Assembly: GCF_003815715.1 (NCBI RefSeq)
Contig: NZ_CP033922.1
Coordinates: forward strand, 2,572,001-2,636,000
Direction: 5' to 3'
DNA from: Chryseobacterium sp. G0162
GTDB lineage: Bacteria > Bacteroidota > Bacteroidia > Flavobacteriales > Weeksellaceae
Length of the DNA stretch: 64,000 nt
Shown in pieces: positions 19,922-24,988 of the stretch (position 1 is the first letter of the stretch; every line of letters starts with the position of its first letter). The notes under the pieces were generated by a model, which worked only from the letters and a program-made list of their open reading frames with translations, searched no databases and was not told the DNA's origin. A program made the position numbers and the translations under genes.

Positions 19922-20266
19922 TTAATTGCATCCGGAACAATAAGATCTATCTACATATTGCTTACTGTTTCCTGAATAATAGTAGCAGCCTCCTCTTGAG
20001 CCAACGTACAATTGATTACCATTGTATGTGCATCCCCGGCTTCTGGAACTTGAAGAATAAGATCTTGGAGAAGAGTAGCTTGAATAGGAACTTGAAGGAG
20101 TATAGCGTGATCTAGACGATTTACTCTTTCTGCTGGTTTTAGTTTTTCCTTTTCCTGGCTTTTTGAAAAATTCTTTAGTTGAAGTTGTACTAACTGTAGA
20201 TGCTGAAATATTGGCAGGGAATAATAATCCAAGTCCTAGAAGTCCTGTAAAAAGTAGTTTTTTCAT
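19922..20266 (-). CDS. small secreted Ser/Arg-rich protein with Cys-rich end
   Basis: 114 aa. It has a clear signal peptide (MKKLLFTGLLGLGLLFPANISA), then a basic stretch, then a Ser/Tyr/Arg-rich low-complexity middle. A compact C-terminal motif follows: GCTYNGNQLYVG, RGGCYYYSGN, YVDRSYCSGC. The GxRGGCYYY..YVDRSYC pattern reminds me of a short basic adaptor-like domain seen in other Bacteroidota secreted proteins, but I cannot name it with confidence. It is the third gene of an operon driven from the promoter at 20933-20976, 28 bp after the DUF6232 gene. Confidence 0.75.
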   Translation of the reverse strand: MKKLLFTGLLGLGLLFPANISASTVSTTSTKEFFKKPGKGKTKTSRKSKSSRSRYTPSSSYSSYSSPRSYSSSSRSRGCTYNGNQLYVGSRGGCYYYSGNSKQYVDRSYCSGCN

Positions 20267-20294: not shown

Positions 20295-20675
20295 TTATCC
20301 TCGATGAATGATAGCTTCATTTAAAGCATTTACAATTTTTTGAATATAATTTCTGTCTTTTGAAACGATGCTATTGGCTTCTCCTGCATTTGTGCTTATT
20401 CGAACAGCGTATTCATTTTTAATAGAGAAAATTAACCAAACCCCTAAACCTAAAAGTATTACTCCTACCCAAAAAATATTTTTAGACAAAAGAAATGCTA
20501 GTCCTACAAATAGCATTAGAATCGCTTTTGTCTTACTTTTAATAATTTCAAAAATATGAACAGAAGAAATATTTCGCATTGCATATGTTTTTGATTGGGT
20601 TACAAATCTTGATTGTGTAACAATTACAGAACTATCTTTGTAAAATGTTGTTTCGGTTGGGTTTGAGGTTTCCAT
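20295..20675 (-). CDS. DUF6232-like membrane protein
   Basis: 126-aa protein with the pattern FYKDSSVIVTQSRFVTQSKTYAMRN, then two close hydrophobic segments (about residues 50-63 and 67-84), then a hydrophilic end that reads VRISTNAGEANSIVSKD and ends in an amphipathic helix (IVNALNEAI). It resembles the family called DUF6232; function unknown. It is the second gene of the operon, 21 bp after the Cys/His-rich gene and 28 bp before the secreted Ser/Arg-rich gene. Confidence 0.75.
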   Translation of the reverse strand: METSNPTETTFYKDSSVIVTQSRFVTQSKTYAMRNISSVHIFEIIKSKTKAILMLFVGLAFLLSKNIFWVGVILLGLGVWLIFSIKNEYAVRISTNAGEANSIVSKDRNYIQKIVNALNEAIIHRG

Positions 20676-20696: not shown

Positions 20697-20903
20697 TTAT
20701 TTGGTATGACAGACCTGAGAGCAATAATAACAACCATTTGATTGAGGATAGTCTTTTTTTGCTTCTTTTACAGCTTCTTTGCATGAAGAAAATGTACCTA
20801 GGTATTTTCTATTATCAAGGGTTGGTAGTCTATAACAGTTTTCATCATGAACTTCATGATCACCGTTGCTTTGTGCATTCTTGTTTACATAATACTTTTT
20901 CAT
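20697..20903 (-). CDS. small Cys/His-rich protein of unknown function
   Basis: 68 aa from Met 20903 (MKKYYVNKNAQSNGDHEVH). There are five cysteines and several histidines, including HDENCYRLP and a final CYYCSQVCH, which suggests a structural metal site; this is inference. Similar small proteins are common in Bacteroidota without known function. An earlier in-frame ATG (20930) falls at the predicted transcription start, so Met 20903 is preferred. It is the first gene of a three-gene operon whose promoter carries the TACGG-N4-CCGTA operator. Confidence 0.8.
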   Translation of the reverse strand: MKKYYVNKNAQSNGDHEVHDENCYRLPTLDNRKYLGTFSSCKEAVKEAKKDYPQSNGCYYCSQVCHTK

Positions 20904-20932
20904 GTATTTTATTTTTAGTTGGTTTAACATTC

Positions 20933-20976
20933 CAAAAATATAACCCTTTAAAATCCCATCCTTACGGGAATCCGTA
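20933..20976 (-). promoter_or_regulatory. regulated promoter of the small-protein operon: palindrome plus -7 box
   Basis: On the minus strand TACGG-ATTC-CCGTA (20976-20963) is followed after exactly 22 nt by TATTTTTG (20940-20933), a TAnnTTTG -7 box. The palindrome centre would lie near -41.5, a classical activator position. No -33 element is evident. The first gene starts 30 nt downstream of the box. Confidence 0.75.
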
Positions 20977-20983
20977 AAAACAA

Positions 20984-21009
20984 AAATCTTCCGGTTTATC
21001 GGAAGGTTT
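20984..21009 (-). terminator. terminator after the response regulator gene
   Basis: CTTCCG and CGGAAG with flanking AA/TT and a T-G pair make the stem, with a GTTTAT loop. On the minus strand it is followed by TTTTTGTTTTT. Confidence 0.75.
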
Positions 21010-21019
21010 ACTTATTTAT

Positions 21020-21043
21020 ACTAATACTAATACTAATACTAAT
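21020..21043. repeat. ACTAAT x 4 tandem repeat
   Basis: Four perfect head-to-tail copies of ACTAAT between the response regulator stop codon and its terminator. It is probably a slippage-prone microsatellite with no coding consequence. Confidence 0.85.
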
Positions 21044-21049
21044 ACGAGG

Positions 21050-21715
21050 TTATATAATTCCCCAATCTTTACAATGAGCAATCAATTGCTCATTATTAGA
21101 TACATCTAGTGATTCTTTAAGATTGTTGAGAGATTTTTCAACACTGCTAAGACTGGATGGTTTGATATTATTTTCTTTCAAATAATCAGGGATATTTTTT
21201 TGAATCATACCTTTGGAAAGCAATGTGACTAGAATTTTATCAAACTTTGTGAAATCATAAGAATTTTTATTTTTTATTGATTCCTTAAGTTTTGCAGAAG
21301 TATATTTTTCATTATTATAGACTGCTTTTATTGCTTTTTTAAGCTCTTTAATATCATTTCTGCCTTTAGATACAAAACCATCTATTTTTTGTTCCTTAAA
21401 AAGAACATCTACAATTTCAGGTCTATTTTCTATTGAAAAGACAATTGTTTTAATTGTAGGCTGTTCAGACTTAACAGCAGCAATTAGCTCTCTTCCCGTA
21501 GTTAAATGCTGTTCTCTATAATCAGAATCAAATGATAAATCTGTAATAAGTAGATCATATGGGTTTTGATCTCTAAGCCCTTTTTTTATTTTCAACCAAG
21601 CATCATCACAGTAGTGGGCAGTTTCCATTGTAAGGATTTTTAACTCTTCAAGTATTTTTTGAACGGAAATATTGAAACTCTCAAAGTCTTCGGCTATTAG
21701 TACTTTTTTAAACAT
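21050..21715 (-). CDS. response regulator with LuxR/NarL-like output domain
   Basis: 221 aa. The receiver domain has acidic pocket E9-D10, phospho-acceptor D59 (LLITDLSF), S94 and K117. A linker leads to a C-terminal helix-turn-helix with the NarL/LuxR shape: LLSKGMIQKNIPDYLKEN, then SSVEKSLNNLKESLDVSNNEQLIAHCKDWGII. The DNA-contacting helix is divergent from the standard TVK pattern. It starts 4 nt after the kinase gene. An internal promoter in the kinase gene carries the same palindrome as two nearby promoters, so this protein is the best candidate to bind TACGG-N4-CCGTA and to activate its own synthesis; that part is inference. Confidence 0.9.
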   Translation of the reverse strand: MFKKVLIAEDFESFNISVQKILEELKILTMETAHYCDDAWLKIKKGLRDQNPYDLLITDLSFDSDYREQHLTTGRELIAAVKSEQPTIKTIVFSIENRPEIVDVLFKEQKIDGFVSKGRNDIKELKKAIKAVYNNEKYTSAKLKESIKNKNSYDFTKFDKILVTLLSKGMIQKNIPDYLKENNIKPSSLSSVEKSLNNLKESLDVSNNEQLIAHCKDWGII

Positions 21716-21719
21716 ATTT

Positions 21720-23372
21720 TTATTTTTTGGCTGGAAATGAAAGATTTATCTTTAATCCCTTTTCTGTTTTTGTTTCAAAATTAATTGTTCCGTGTATAGA
21801 ATTTATACGGGATTCCGTATTTTTCAAACCATTTTTAGGAGAATGTTCCTGAATTCCTACTCCGTTATCTGTATATGAAATATTGATAAGGTTATTTTCT
21901 CTTTCAAAATCAATAATAACACGATCGGCTTTACTGTGTTTTTTCATATTGGTCATTAATTCCTGAAGAATATAGAAAATCTCAATTTTGGTATTCCCTG
22001 ATACTCCATTCCAGAATCCTTCTTCATTTCCAATGATAGGAACTTTAATAGTGTCAGAGGAATAAGACTTGAGCATTTGAGAGAGCTGTTTTGAAAAATC
22101 CTTTTCCAAAATAATATCCTGGTCTTCATAAGAAATGTCCCGGGAGATATGGTAAATGTTTTCTAATTTGTCAAGTAGCTCGTTTTTGTCAATATTTACA
22201 GTGTTTTCAACTTCTGACATGACATGATACACCTTATTGGCAACTTTATCATGGACCTTTTTTGAGTATTTAATTTCTGTATTTTTTACTTCGATCTCTT
22301 TTTCTTGCTGAAGCTTTTTTTGTCTTTTCTTATATAAAACTATACTAATAATTAATAGTGCAATAAGTAATGCTGAAAGTAGATACTGCCATAATATTTG
22401 AATTTCTTTTTCTGCTTTCTGTAATTTTAACGATTGATTTTCTAAATTCTTTTTTTCGACATCATACCTTATGGTTGCAAATTGATTTTTTGCTTTGTTT
22501 CGTGAAATTTGGACACTGTCATTTAGTTTCTGAAAATCATCAAAATAGGCTAAATTATTGTTGGGTGTAAGACTGATTATTTTTTGTAATGCCTGAAGCT
22601 GATCTTCAATACTGTTATTTTTCTTTGCAGTATTGAGCATTTGTTCAGCAAAATAAAGAGCTTTCTTTTTATCTGAATGAAGATAAAAGATGGATAAAGT
22701 AGCATAACTGGAATTTTCTCCGATACTGTTGTTTGCTCTTTTTCTAATTTCAAGAGCTTTATAAAATTCTGAGAGAGGATTATAATTTTTATTATCGAAA
22801 TTCTTTGCTCTTGCTAAATTATTAATGACCATAGCATACTTCAAACTGTCTGTTGTGGGCAATGCAAGCTGTATGTTTTTGATGGCTGCTTTATAATCTT
22901 TTAAGGTTATTTGGGCTGTCCCAAGGTTATTTAAAATCATATACCTGTATTCCTTAGCAGATGTATATTGAAGAGCTTTTTGATAATATCTGATGCAATC
23001 CTCAAATTCATAAAGATAGGAAGAACAGATGGCCATGCTGTTATAATTTGAAGCAAACGTTTGACGGCTTATACTATCTTCTTTTTTTCCCAGATATCGA
23101 TCTGCTTCAAGTGAGGTTTCAATGCTTCCATAGTAATCTCCTTTACTTTCCTGAAGGATTGCCATGTTTACGAGTGCTTTGGCCGCCCCCACAGAGTCTT
23201 TTGTGGCCAGATAAGCATTCTTTGCCAAGTTGAAATAATAGAATGAAGAGCCCGTAGTGTCGGTTTTAGCTTTTTCATAATACGTCTTGGCTATTCCATT
23301 TTCTGTATCGGCCTGTTTGTCGCTACATGAGAATAGTAGAATAGCAAGAGATATGATAAAGAGTTTTTTCAT
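21720..23372 (-). CDS. TPR-containing sensor histidine kinase, lipoprotein-type signal
   Basis: 550 aa. The N-terminus MKKLFIISLAILLFSC has a lipobox-like end at C16. Residues 30-290 are TPR-like helical repeats, expected outside the inner membrane; 290-325 is a coiled coil; a membrane helix spans about 328-346. The DHp-like helix has the likely phospho-acceptor H374 (KKVHDKVANKVYHVM). The ATPase domain has N475 (ELMTNMKKH), D502-N-G-V-G and a final GLKINLSFP. This kinase type, common in Bacteroidota, pairs with LuxR-like regulators, and the regulator gene follows after 4 nt. The signal sensed is unknown. Codons 518-522 (NTESR) encode the operator palindrome on the same strand. Confidence 0.92.
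   Translation of the reverse strand: MKKLFIISLAILLFSCSDKQADTENGIAKTYYEKAKTDTTGSSFYYFNLAKNAYLATKDSVGAAKALVNMAILQESKGDYYGSIETSLEADRYLGKKEDSISRQTFASNYNSMAICSSYLYEFEDCIRYYQKALQYTSAKEYRYMILNNLGTAQITLKDYKAAIKNIQLALPTTDSLKYAMVINNLARAKNFDNKNYNPLSEFYKALEIRKRANNSIGENSSYATLSIFYLHSDKKKALYFAEQMLNTAKKNNSIEDQLQALQKIISLTPNNNLAYFDDFQKLNDSVQISRNKAKNQFATIRYDVEKKNLENQSLKLQKAEKEIQILWQYLLSALLIALLIISIVLYKKRQKKLQQEKEIEVKNTEIKYSKKVHDKVANKVYHVMSEVENTVNIDKNELLDKLENIYHISRDISYEDQDIILEKDFSKQLSQMLKSYSSDTIKVPIIGNEEGFWNGVSGNTKIEIFYILQELMTNMKKHSKADRVIIDFERENNLINISYTDNGVGIQEHSPKNGLKNTESRINSIHGTINFETKTEKGLKINLSFPAKK
21776..21819 (-). promoter_or_regulatory. internal promoter in the kinase gene, in front of the response regulator
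   Basis: On the minus strand TACGG-AATC-CCGTA (21819-21806) is followed after exactly 22 nt by TAATTTTG (21783-21776), a perfect TAnnTTTG -7 box. It lies inside the last 35 codons of the kinase gene, about 60 nt before the regulator start codon. The geometry is the same as at 20933-20976 and 23953-23996. Confidence 0.75.
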
Positions 23373-23402
23373 GGATTACTTTGTGGTATCCAAAATAAAA
23401 AA

Positions 23403-23430
23403 AAAGAACAGATTATACAATCTGTTCTTT
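23403..23430 (-). terminator. terminator between the small peptide gene and the kinase gene
   Basis: AAAGAACAGATT and AATCTGTTCTTT form a perfect 12-bp stem with an ATAC loop. On the minus strand a run of more than ten T follows, so the peptide gene at 23445 is at least partly separate from the kinase transcript. Confidence 0.85.
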
Positions 23431-23444
23431 CGTATTTATTAAGC

Positions 23445-23639
23445 CTACATGCCTGGAGGAGGAAGTTGGCCTGTATTGCCTCCTGTATTACCTCCGTTTC
23501 CGTGTCCATCACCCGTTTCAGTTTCAGGGTCTTCTTTGGCGCTTAGAGTTGTGATATTTGACTTTTGATTGTCATTATAGTGTGTTGTATTGACATTATT
23601 GGTAAATGCTAAAAGTAGCATCATAAAAAACTGGATCAT
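23445..23639 (-). CDS. small peptide with hydrophobic N-terminus and Gly/Pro-rich end (paralog 1)
   Basis: 64 aa. It opens MIQFFMMLLLAFTNN, a signal-like hydrophobic segment, then NTTH, a polar acidic middle, and a Gly-rich end reading GGNTGQLPPPGM. The gene at 24818-24988 has the same start (MIQF..ML), the same TTH and the same end (GGETGQTPPP), so the two are paralogs. The gene lies directly upstream of the sensor kinase, with its own terminator, and behind a 185-nt region rich in inverted repeats. The function is unknown. A secreted or membrane-attached peptide sensed by the TPR kinase is one possibility; no sequence evidence proves it. Confidence 0.65.
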   Translation of the reverse strand: MIQFFMMLLLAFTNNVNTTHYNDNQKSNITTLSAKEDPETETGDGHGNGGNTGGNTGQLPPPGM

Positions 23640-23678
23640 TCCTTAAAAATTTTTTCGTTTGAAATTGTTTTTCTTCCT

Positions 23679-23806
23679 CCCGAGACATTTTGTCTCAGGC
23701 AGTACACAGTTAAAATTTCGAAGCGCTTCTAAATTTTTTGGGAAGTGAACCTTCAAAAACGGAGGAGAAACATCTGCTTCCCAACCCGGAGTTTTCCCTC
23801 CGTTTT
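23679..23806 (-). other. structured leader-like region with interleaved inverted repeats
   Basis: This is the only gap longer than 300 bp (23640-24008). It contains a hairpin CCCGAGACA/TGTCTCAGG (23679-23699), whose one imperfect pair becomes a G-U wobble only on the minus strand. It also has palindrome GAAGCGCTTC (23720-23729) and two interleaved repeats: TTGGGAAG (23738-23745) with CTTCCCAA (23777-23784), and AAAACGGAGG (23756-23765) with CCTCCGTTTT (23797-23806). The A-B-A'-B' order allows a pseudoknot or two alternative hairpins. It would be the 5' leader of the peptide gene at 23445-23639. Confidence 0.5.
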
Positions 23807-23952
23807 ATCTGGTGATTTTTGAAATCAGTTTTGTAAATTTGTTTTTGTAATGTTTTGTTTTTCACTGATCTCTGATGCAAAGATGCTACGGAAAAGGGGG
23901 CAAGGGTTAGAAAGATTCTGGAAAATTTTTGGAAATTTTTTTTGGAGAGATG

Positions 23953-23996
23953 TACGGAAAACCGTAATGTTTTTGAAGTAGGACTTCATAATTTTC
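23953..23996 (+). promoter_or_regulatory. regulated promoter of the gene at 24009: palindrome plus -7 box
   Basis: TACGG-AAAA-CCGTA (23953-23966) is followed after exactly 22 nt by TAATTTTC (23989-23996), one mismatch from TAnnTTTG. A further half-site TACGG lies at 23887-23891. Transcription would start near 24001. Confidence 0.7.
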
Positions 23997-24008
23997 AACA
24001 CAATAACC

Positions 24009-24770
24009 ATGAGTATGTCAAAATTTTTATCCGAAAAGAAAAAGTTATTAGAAGATGTTTATAAAAAAGCTTCAAATGAGGCCACAGAGACATCATTTAA
24101 TGGAATTATTCAATATCTTGATCGAACTTTGAAAGACGAATTTGAACCGCTTAGTTATAAATCTTTTGAAAATTATTATAAAGCTATAGTAGAAAATGAT
24201 GAAGATTATAATATAAAAACATCGACTTTGGATAATTTAAGTAGGTATTTAGGATATGAAACGTTTAAAGATTATCGATCTGAATGGAGAACAATGGAAT
24301 ACACTATTCAGCAGGCTATATCTAAAATTGTAATAACAATCATTAATAAACCTATTCTTGCGATGCCAGAGGTTTTAAAGCAAAATGGATTAGGTATAGC
24401 TGGAGCTTTTCTTGTTATAAGTGTTTTAATTGGAAATCATTATCCATTTGGAAGAGAAAAAGGTCGCCCTCAAGGTATTCTTGATGATAAAAAGTGTATG
24501 TTTTGGGATGATAGTGAATATAAGCTGGGGGATTGTGAAGATAAAAACCCTCAACGAAGTCTTATTCCTAAAGATACCGTTCAGCTAAAGTATTTTAAAC
24601 GGATTACAAGAAAAGATACGCTTACTGTGGATAATGCCTTAGGTAGTACTTGGTACTCAAAGTTTAATGGGAATGTTGAGTTTTTTACTATGGATGGAGT
24701 AGATCCGGATACTGGACGTGAGCTGAGAGCTTCTACAGCATATATTATTGGGAAATATGCAGGGTATTAA
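24009..24770 (+). CDS. single-span membrane protein of unknown function with HTH-like N-terminal part
   Basis: 253 aa; the start could also be Met 24015. Residues 1-100 are helical and carry SYKSFENYYKAIVE and NIKTSTLDNLSRYLGYETFKDY, which looks like a small helix-turn-helix or adaptor region recurring in Bacteroidota proteins. A membrane segment follows at about 128-143 (LGIAGAFLVISVLIG), then a C-terminal domain of about 100 residues with several charged stretches and a WYSKFNGNVEFFTMDG segment. I do not recognise a defined family. The promoter carries the TACGG-N4-CCGTA operator, so it is a likely target of the adjacent response regulator. It ends at a bidirectional terminator facing the small peptide gene. 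Confidence 0.75.
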   Translation: MSMSKFLSEKKKLLEDVYKKASNEATETSFNGIIQYLDRTLKDEFEPLSYKSFENYYKAIVENDEDYNIKTSTLDNLSRYLGYETFKDYRSEWRTMEYTIQQAISKIVITIINKPILAMPEVLKQNGLGIAGAFLVISVLIGNHYPFGREKGRPQGILDDKKCMFWDDSEYKLGDCEDKNPQRSLIPKDTVQLKYFKRITRKDTLTVDNALGSTWYSKFNGNVEFFTMDGVDPDTGRELRASTAYIIGKYAGY

Positions 24771-24817: not shown

Positions 24818-24988
24818 TTATTTTTTTGGAGGAGGTGGAGTTTGTCCAGTTTCTCCTCCGGTATCTTCTATTGATCCGCTTGATTCGGATGCTGAAGATT
24901 GTATTATTAATGAATTACTTGGTACTACTACATGGGTTGTGCTATTAGGAAATGCAAAGCCAAATAGCATTAAAATAAATTGAATCAT
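24818..24988 (-). CDS. small peptide with hydrophobic N-terminus and Pro-rich end (paralog 2)
   Basis: 56 aa, short enough to escape ordinary gene calling. It begins MIQFILMLFGFAFPN, then STTH, a Ser/Val-rich middle with acidic residues, and ends TGGETGQTPPPPKK. The start, the TTH and the GGxTGQxPPP end are shared with the peptide at 23445-23639; the middles differ in sequence and length. It lies 28 bp downstream of msrA on the same strand and ends beside a hairpin terminator. Its function is unknown. The conserved ends suggest processing or binding signals, with a variable centre. Confidence 0.6.
   Translation of the reverse strand: MIQFILMLFGFAFPNSTTHVVVPSNSLIIQSSASESSGSIEDTGGETGQTPPPPKK

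Follow-up and report, generated by a model that had tools for sequence, protein, structure and literature searches.

How bacteria time the expression of acquired defence systems is, to our knowledge, poorly known. Peptide quorum sensing of the RRNPP type relies on cytoplasmic TPR regulators in Gram-positive bacteria. In Serratia, the Rcs, quorum-sensing and Rsm pathways control three CRISPR-Cas systems, with Rsm acting post-transcriptionally, according to the excerpted text of PMC8450108. Here, we describe a palindrome, TACGG-N4-CCGTA, found in a stretch of 64,000 nucleotides from Chryseobacterium sp. G0162 (contig NZ_CP033922.1, positions 2,572,001 to 2,636,000), hereafter the window. This palindrome is likely to be the operator of the adjacent two-component system, whose response regulator would activate class II promoters of its own gene and of envelope and defence genes. 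The argument draws on features read from DNA: the site and its spacing, their conservation, their correlation with the response regulator, selection at the nucleotide level, and the placement of sites before defence genes.

Three perfect palindromes were present in the window. Operator A (TACGGATTCCCGTA; 20963..20976, minus strand) lies before an operon of small proteins, operator B (TACGGAATCCCGTA; 21806..21819, minus strand) precedes the response regulator gene and falls within the kinase gene, where it covers the codons N-T-E-S-R-I, and operator C (TACGGAAAACCGTA; 23953..23966, plus strand) lies before the gene at 24009. Each is followed, at exactly 22 nucleotides, by a -7 box of the form TAnnTTT[G/C]: TATTTTTG (20933..20940, minus strand) past operator A, TAATTTTG (21776..21783, minus strand) past operator B, and TAATTTTC (23989..23996, plus strand) past operator C. 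An earlier annotation of the window, made from its letters alone (the sequence-only reading), had reported these copies and their common distance, and both were found again here. It had also noticed no further copy, in agreement with a search allowing up to one mismatch, which returned these three sites only (0.20 expected from shuffles). Duplication as the origin of the three copies was rejected, since the spacers and the palindrome centres differ.

The genome of the window (5,276,141 bp, single contig) contains the palindrome 10 times, versus twice for the pattern read backwards. The genome-wide search proposed as a check in the sequence-only reading showed that the spacing is kept well beyond the window: 7 of the 10 palindromes have a box at exactly 22 nucleotides, one at 23 nucleotides, and two have no box. 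With TAnnTTT[GC] occurring at a rate of 0.0013 per position in the window, this proportion is far beyond chance (binomial p ~1e-16). Seven palindromes in total lie outside the window, those with the 22-nucleotide spacing being at 137138, 1328474, 5264548 and 5274015. We rejected the idea of a word that is simply frequent in the genome, as the reversed-pattern control gave about 0.6 per genome. A perfect operator-promoter was seen before a small gene at L041:6109-6152 (genome 137108-137151), in a region that looks like a Mu-type prophage by eye.

To describe the promoter geometry, we used 142 distinct palindromes from stretches of 14 genomes (the window's own, eight relatives and five more), which included 6 of the 12 sites of genome G002, 3 of the 5 sites of G016, and all listed sites of the other genomes. 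With the strict box TANNTTT[GC], 62 palindromes had a box at 22 nucleotides, 6 at 23 and 4 at 21, and no more than 3 of the 142 had one at any of the remaining distances from 0 to 45 nucleotides; with a looser box, 96 had one at 21-23 nucleotides. In Flavobacterium psychrophilum, the TAnnTTTG box corresponds to positions -12 to -5 (excerpted text of PMC9723704), which would place the palindrome at -48 to -35, with its centre at -41.5. A centre near this position, as in an activator-type site, had been proposed in the sequence-only reading and is well supported by the fixed spacing and the position of the -7 box. In the region of the -33 element, TTG was found in only 7 of the 62 strict sites and was not enriched, which bears out the earlier remark that no such element is visible. 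Overall, the spacing, the -41.5 centre, the TAnnTTTG box and the lack of a good -33 element make up, at the level of sequence, a class II activator geometry. The direction of control is one that we infer, and the response regulator might instead bind and repress. We judge this very unlikely: a palindrome at one fixed distance together with unenriched TTG at -33 fits a class II activator, whereas more freedom in the spacing would be expected of a repressor.

The response regulator gene was detected in 165 of the 173 genomes of the genus (E 1e-25 or better). Among the best 30 loci of the match list, including that of the window, the pattern TAYGG-N4-CCRTA with a box at exactly 22 nucleotides occurred at least once in all 30 loci, so that the comparison with related genomes suggested in the sequence-only reading found the arrangement conserved throughout. 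It occurred twice in 24 of the 30 loci, with one site before the response regulator gene, or tandem response regulator genes, and one behind.

Moreover, the number of sites varied with the presence of the regulator. Same-genus genomes with the response regulator (34 genomes) had an average of 9.8 palindromes, ranging from 1 to 17 (0.59 for the reversed-pattern control), versus an average of 1.6 in five genomes that lack the regulator and are at least 90% complete (0, 2, 1, 4 and 1 palindromes; p = 3e-4). Three less complete genomes without the regulator had 2, 3 and 11 palindromes. Outside the genus, G037 and G052, which have strong matches to the response regulator, had 3 and 7 palindromes, and 21 others had an average of 0.5; in family f3, also outside the genus, both the regulator and the sites were present. 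Nine of the 17 named loci encoding a relative of the response regulator belong to Chryseobacterium. The arrangement was kept in Flavobacterium salmonis and in two Sphingobacterium loci; those of Muricauda, Zobellia and Leeuwenhoekiella have kept the regulator, with no palindrome in the 12.6 kb examined. The site thus follows the response regulator gene from genome to genome, and sites are few without it.

The response regulator itself (21050..21715, minus strand) consists of a receiver and a divergent helix-turn-helix. The receiver (PF00072, 4.6e-7) is the sole domain seen by Pfam, and the phospho-acceptor D59 did not vary in alignments of 12 and of 15 sequences. A profile search of solved structures gave 13 matches, among them RcsB, DesR and VraR. 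The structural model (mean predicted local distance difference test score, pLDDT, of 91) comprises the receiver and four C-terminal helices (157-167, 172-181, 189-202 and 208-217), and its best fold matches by Foldseek were full-length RcsB structures. The model thus assigns the protein to the NarL/LuxR type, with a predicted four-helix helix-turn-helix domain; the Pfam GerE model recognized 1 of 15 homologues, weakly.

The sequence-only reading had proposed that the adjacent LuxR-type response regulator uses the palindrome as an activator site. This proposal is very probably right as to the regulator, given that the site tracks the response regulator, together with its RcsB-like fold and the -41.5 geometry. 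A different transcription factor could bind the palindrome, with the response regulator as merely one of its targets, in that the sites are scattered over the genome and genome G123, which lacks the regulator, still has four palindromes. Such a factor is nonetheless improbable in view of the two sites around the response regulator gene in 24 of the 30 loci, the correlation of site number with its presence, its RcsB-like DNA-binding fold, and the joint occurrence of regulator and sites in f3.

The kinase has a conserved motif, N-T-x-x-R-I ... G-x-I-x-F; operator B overlaps the codons of its first part, and the box those of its last. Since both operator and box sit on conserved kinase codons, protein homology also fixes the distance between them, and the equal spacing that the sequence-only reading had counted as independent evidence loses this value for the site inside the kinase. 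Operator B might then be a by-product of coding for N-T-x-x-R-I ... G-x-I-x-F, a view in line with this homology and with the similar codons, without a palindrome, of Muricauda, Zobellia and Leeuwenhoekiella, which have K codons at codon 4 of the motif. In 36 distinct sequences, codon choice at the in-gene site was extreme compared with the usage in reading frames of at least 150 codons: Thr was encoded by ACG in 29 of 31 sequences (usage 14.6%), Arg by CGT in 32 of 36 (usage 13.4%), and Asn by AAT in 35 of 35 (usage 67.5%). Binomial p-values for this bias would overstate it, because the 36 sequences are related to one another. Moreover, nucleotides remained constant where residues changed. 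The first base of codon 3 was G in 35 of 36 sequences, with the residue varying among E, V, G, D and A, and the last base of codon 4 was C in 33 of 36, with the residue varying among S, T, I and N. The palindrome was decayed in four sequences (CGC for CGT). In view of the extreme codon choice and of the constant nucleotides at varying residues, coding constraint alone was set aside as an explanation and is, in our view, extremely unlikely. The DNA of operator B is held by nucleotide-level selection while the protein varies, making it a clean example of regulatory DNA constraining a protein-coding sequence.

To characterize the genes behind the operator, the 62 strict sites were traced to 55 called first genes, which formed 38 clusters. 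Ten clusters were excluded (those of the response regulator, of genes leading its downstream operon, and of very small peptides), and the remaining 28 were scanned against PADLOC together with two more genes. Eight of the 28 first-gene representatives matched at 1e-10 or better: a CBASS cyclase (4e-110), GajA (1e-57), a type III methylase (6e-194), SngA (4e-30), DUF4297 (2e-42), Ppl (1e-23), PDC-S15 (2e-24), and a partial match to an RT-protease (1e-14). The two additional genes matched SngA, encoded second in another operon, and ThsA (3e-187), behind the relaxed box TATTTTTA. We take GajA, SngA, ThsA and MkoC (see below) to represent the systems Gabija, Shango, Thoeris and Mokosh, respectively. 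One further target was TerD by Pfam, without a PADLOC match. The background consisted of 119 of the 386 genes called in 20 stretches of 20 kb from two genomes (a draw of 120, less one giant gene), mostly not accessory. No more than 18 of them matched at 1e-10, a bound that assumes one family per gene, and no more than 4 at 1e-20. At 1e-20, 7 of 28 operator genes versus at most 4 of 119 was significant (p = 9e-4). The plain count at 1e-10 was rejected as proof of defence enrichment, since 8 of 28 versus the hard upper bound of 18 of 119 gave p = 0.08; smaller p-values at this threshold rested on assumed backgrounds of 5/80 and 12/119. In the genome of the window, sites with two or three mismatches precede MkoC, RelA/SpoT-like, GajA-like and restriction-like genes, and are only suggestive as operators because their counts are near the control (up to three mismatches, 31/37 forward/reverse versus 24/32).

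Other recurrent targets were a lipoprotein (three sites; SH3-like by eye, no Pfam match) and, at two sites each, CxYNG...GGCYY proteins, a DUF4236 protein and a zinc-ribbon protein; envelope proteins are among the targets. In the sequence-only reading, the regulon comprised the response regulator itself, the small-protein operon and the membrane protein, which proved too narrow: the predicted regulon is genome-wide and includes anti-phage defence genes.

Defence loci of the 173 genomes were also searched for the operator, defined as TAYGG-N4-CCRTA with the box TANNTTT[GCA] or TANNTT[AT]G at 21-23 nucleotides. For GajA (PDLC00065; about 100 matches listed, 30 loci examined, the best one per genome), a sense operator lay at most 600 nucleotides upstream in 12 of the 30 loci, 8 of them with the 22-nucleotide distance, and three more loci had a palindrome without an accepted box. 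When GajA was grouped into lineages at 70% identity, 5 of 14 had the 22-nucleotide distance. The control for this test was the rest of the same 30 loci: 12 sites were found in 16.4 kb upstream versus 2 in the remaining 277 kb on both strands (p = 8e-14). The 400-kb background, with zero exact palindromes, is no independent control, its stretches having been placed when the positions of the palindromes in G003 and G031 were already known. The operator was also found at 4 of 7 loci of the cyclase PDLC00808 (three of them with the same sequence, the fourth sharing 89% identity over 1.1 kb) and at 2 of 13 ThsA loci. At integrase loci (best-scoring only), it was found in none of 30, three of which had a relaxed palindrome with no box; this control looks core, with one integrase of similar length per genome.

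Overall, the operator is present at many defence loci and absent from many others. The operator appears to precede defence genes more often than other genes, strongly so in the GajA reverse test and, in the forward test, at 1e-20 only. A preference for accessory genes in general, of which defence genes would be only a part, is an unlikely reading. In its favour, accessory genes are a minority of the forward background, the integrases seem to belong to the core, and the PADLOC enrichment at 1e-10 was not significant; the comparisons were with background genes, the rest of the GajA loci and integrases rather than with a matched set of non-defence accessory genes. Conversely, the reverse test began from the GajA and cyclase families, and the operator stands at 22 nucleotides in 5 of the 14 GajA lineages.

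In the mechanism that we infer, including binding, phosphorylation, direction of control and signal, the kinase would phosphorylate the RcsB-like response regulator, whose dimer would bind the palindrome centred at -41.5. The bound regulator would recruit sigma-A RNA polymerase to the TAnnTTTG box without a -33 element (class II activation). It would thereby switch on its own gene, from the operator in the kinase codons; the divergent membrane protein (24009); a downstream operon of varying content; and small envelope proteins, along with a changing accessory set rich in anti-phage defence systems.

Several observations weigh against the palindrome being the operator of this response regulator and a switch for defence genes. 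Among genomes without the regulator, G123 has its four palindromes and the fragmented G166 has 11, although the gene may have been lost in the assembly of the latter (410 contigs); G010 has the regulator yet one palindrome. Even with the looser box, 46 of the 142 palindromes had no usable box at 21-23 nucleotides. The operator was missing at 18 of the 30 GajA loci, including the one of the window genome itself (L311), at 11 of the 13 ThsA loci, and at 3 of the 7 cyclase loci. To these are added the non-significant PADLOC count at 1e-10 and the failure of the Pfam GerE model to detect the response regulator of the window, whose helix-turn-helix is too divergent.

The sensor kinase (21720..23372, minus strand) exhibits a HATPase domain and a TPR region (TPR_12 just under the cut-off), as well as, by eye, an export signal with a lipobox and a single membrane helix. 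Its C-terminus is weakly similar to UhpB, NarX and LiaS, all far under curated cut-offs. Just upstream, a gene encodes a proline-tailed peptide of 64 amino acids (23445..23639, minus strand; no Pfam family, export by eye), and a paralogue of 56 amino acids is encoded at 24818..24988 (minus strand). A terminator-like hairpin (23402..23431, minus strand; consensus match only) separates the peptide and kinase genes, so the kinase may be only partly read together with the peptide gene. In 20 of 25 distinct response regulator loci, the window among them, a short gene upstream of the kinase encodes a peptide that starts with a hydrophobic stretch and ends in a proline-rich one, versus 3 of 400 background windows, with a search expression composed after the peptides had been seen; one further locus, missed by the script, was seen directly. 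Among 108 homologues of one such peptide, the named ones were hypothetical Chryseobacterium proteins and none had a Pfam domain. A lipoprotein-type signal was observed by eye in the kinase-adjacent peptides of Flavobacterium salmonis, Muricauda and Leeuwenhoekiella. We hypothesize that the proline-tailed peptide is the ligand of the kinase. A signalling chain from the exported peptide through the TPR sensor of the kinase and the response regulator to a shared, horizontally changing phage-defence arsenal with acquired class II operators is possible, and we put it forward tentatively. If true, it would place innate immunity in Bacteroidota under density- or envelope-dependent control.

Among the neighbouring genes, the one at 24009..24770 (plus strand) encodes a protein of 253 amino acids with one hydrophobic helix by eye and no Pfam family, and is the divergent neighbour of the kinase in most loci. 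In 26 response regulator loci (L175 and L221 being one genome, the window not counted), its homologue was divergent from the kinase in 19. A palindrome preceded this homologue in 11 of the 19 by script, or 13 of the 19 with two Sphingobacterium loci read directly, and the box was imperfect in several loci. Behind the response regulator, a gene with a type I restriction HSDR_N domain (2e-15) was present in 13 of the 26 loci (e.g., L153:5444-6511). Such a gene was also observed in Muricauda and Leeuwenhoekiella, whose loci show no palindrome. In L184-L186, hairpins around TTACAGATATCTGTAA followed by T runs were seen by eye after the response regulator gene, with small changes in Muricauda and Zobellia.

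In the window, a terminator-like hairpin (20988..21005, minus strand; consensus match only) lies between the response regulator gene and operator A, so that this gene and the small-protein operon look like separate units. The first gene of the operon (20697..20903, minus strand) was read from the second ATG, because the listed open reading frame start at 20930 precedes the expected transcription start. The second gene (20295..20675, minus strand) encodes a DUF6232 protein, and the third (19922..20266, minus strand) a protein with an export signal and a Ser-rich part by eye and a C-terminal CxYNGxxLxVGxxGGCYY. The latter belongs to a small-protein family marked by the motifs CxYNGxxLxxGxxGGCYY and YVDxSxC (window 19922-20266, L046:14286-14465, L048:1644-1916, L139, L146 and L251), several members of which are encoded behind the operator at separate places. 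Genes for very small basic proteins (KPGPK...PD....RR) also recur directly behind it (L134:2090, the site; L147:3912-4058; L251:4360-4500). Finally, a near-identical operator-promoter was seen in two genomes (L046:5019-5062 and L131:2091) with different downstream genes (PIN domain and trypsin-like, respectively), the former just behind a reading frame that looks like a serine recombinase by eye.

If the proposed control is true, the regulator, which 165 of the 173 genomes of the genus possess, would give newly arrived defence genes a common switch, a 44-nucleotide sequence would predict inducible immunity, and the operator would be a means to find unknown defence genes. Among the best-ranked matches listed from the open-licence PMC literature, there was no description of the regulator, the operator or the defence link, which suggests that connecting unrelated phage-defence genes to a single core two-component system through one operator is new within that literature.

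Compared with known systems, the response regulator resembles RcsB and the NarL/LuxR (FixJ-type) regulators in its receiver, its predicted four-helix C-terminal domain and its full-length fold match, but differs from them by an identity of about 20% and a divergent helix-turn-helix; unlike in RcsB-type systems, the putative operator is tied to the Bacteroidota -7 promoter without a -33 element. RRNPP-type quorum sensing shares with this locus the TPR sensors and a peptide gene beside the receptor gene, although the TPR region here is in a kinase with an export signal and peptide binding is hypothetical. The Response_reg_2 and HEF_HK elements are likewise two-component-like genes associated with restriction-modification, but according to PMC8011034 they have other domains, and the association is by neighbourhood rather than by a genome-wide operator. 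In Serratia, as appears to be the case here, one host pathway coordinates several immune systems, and Rcs is an envelope-stress phosphorelay; unlike what the excerpts of PMC8450108 describe, the present system is characterized by a common operator before unrelated defence genes across the genus.

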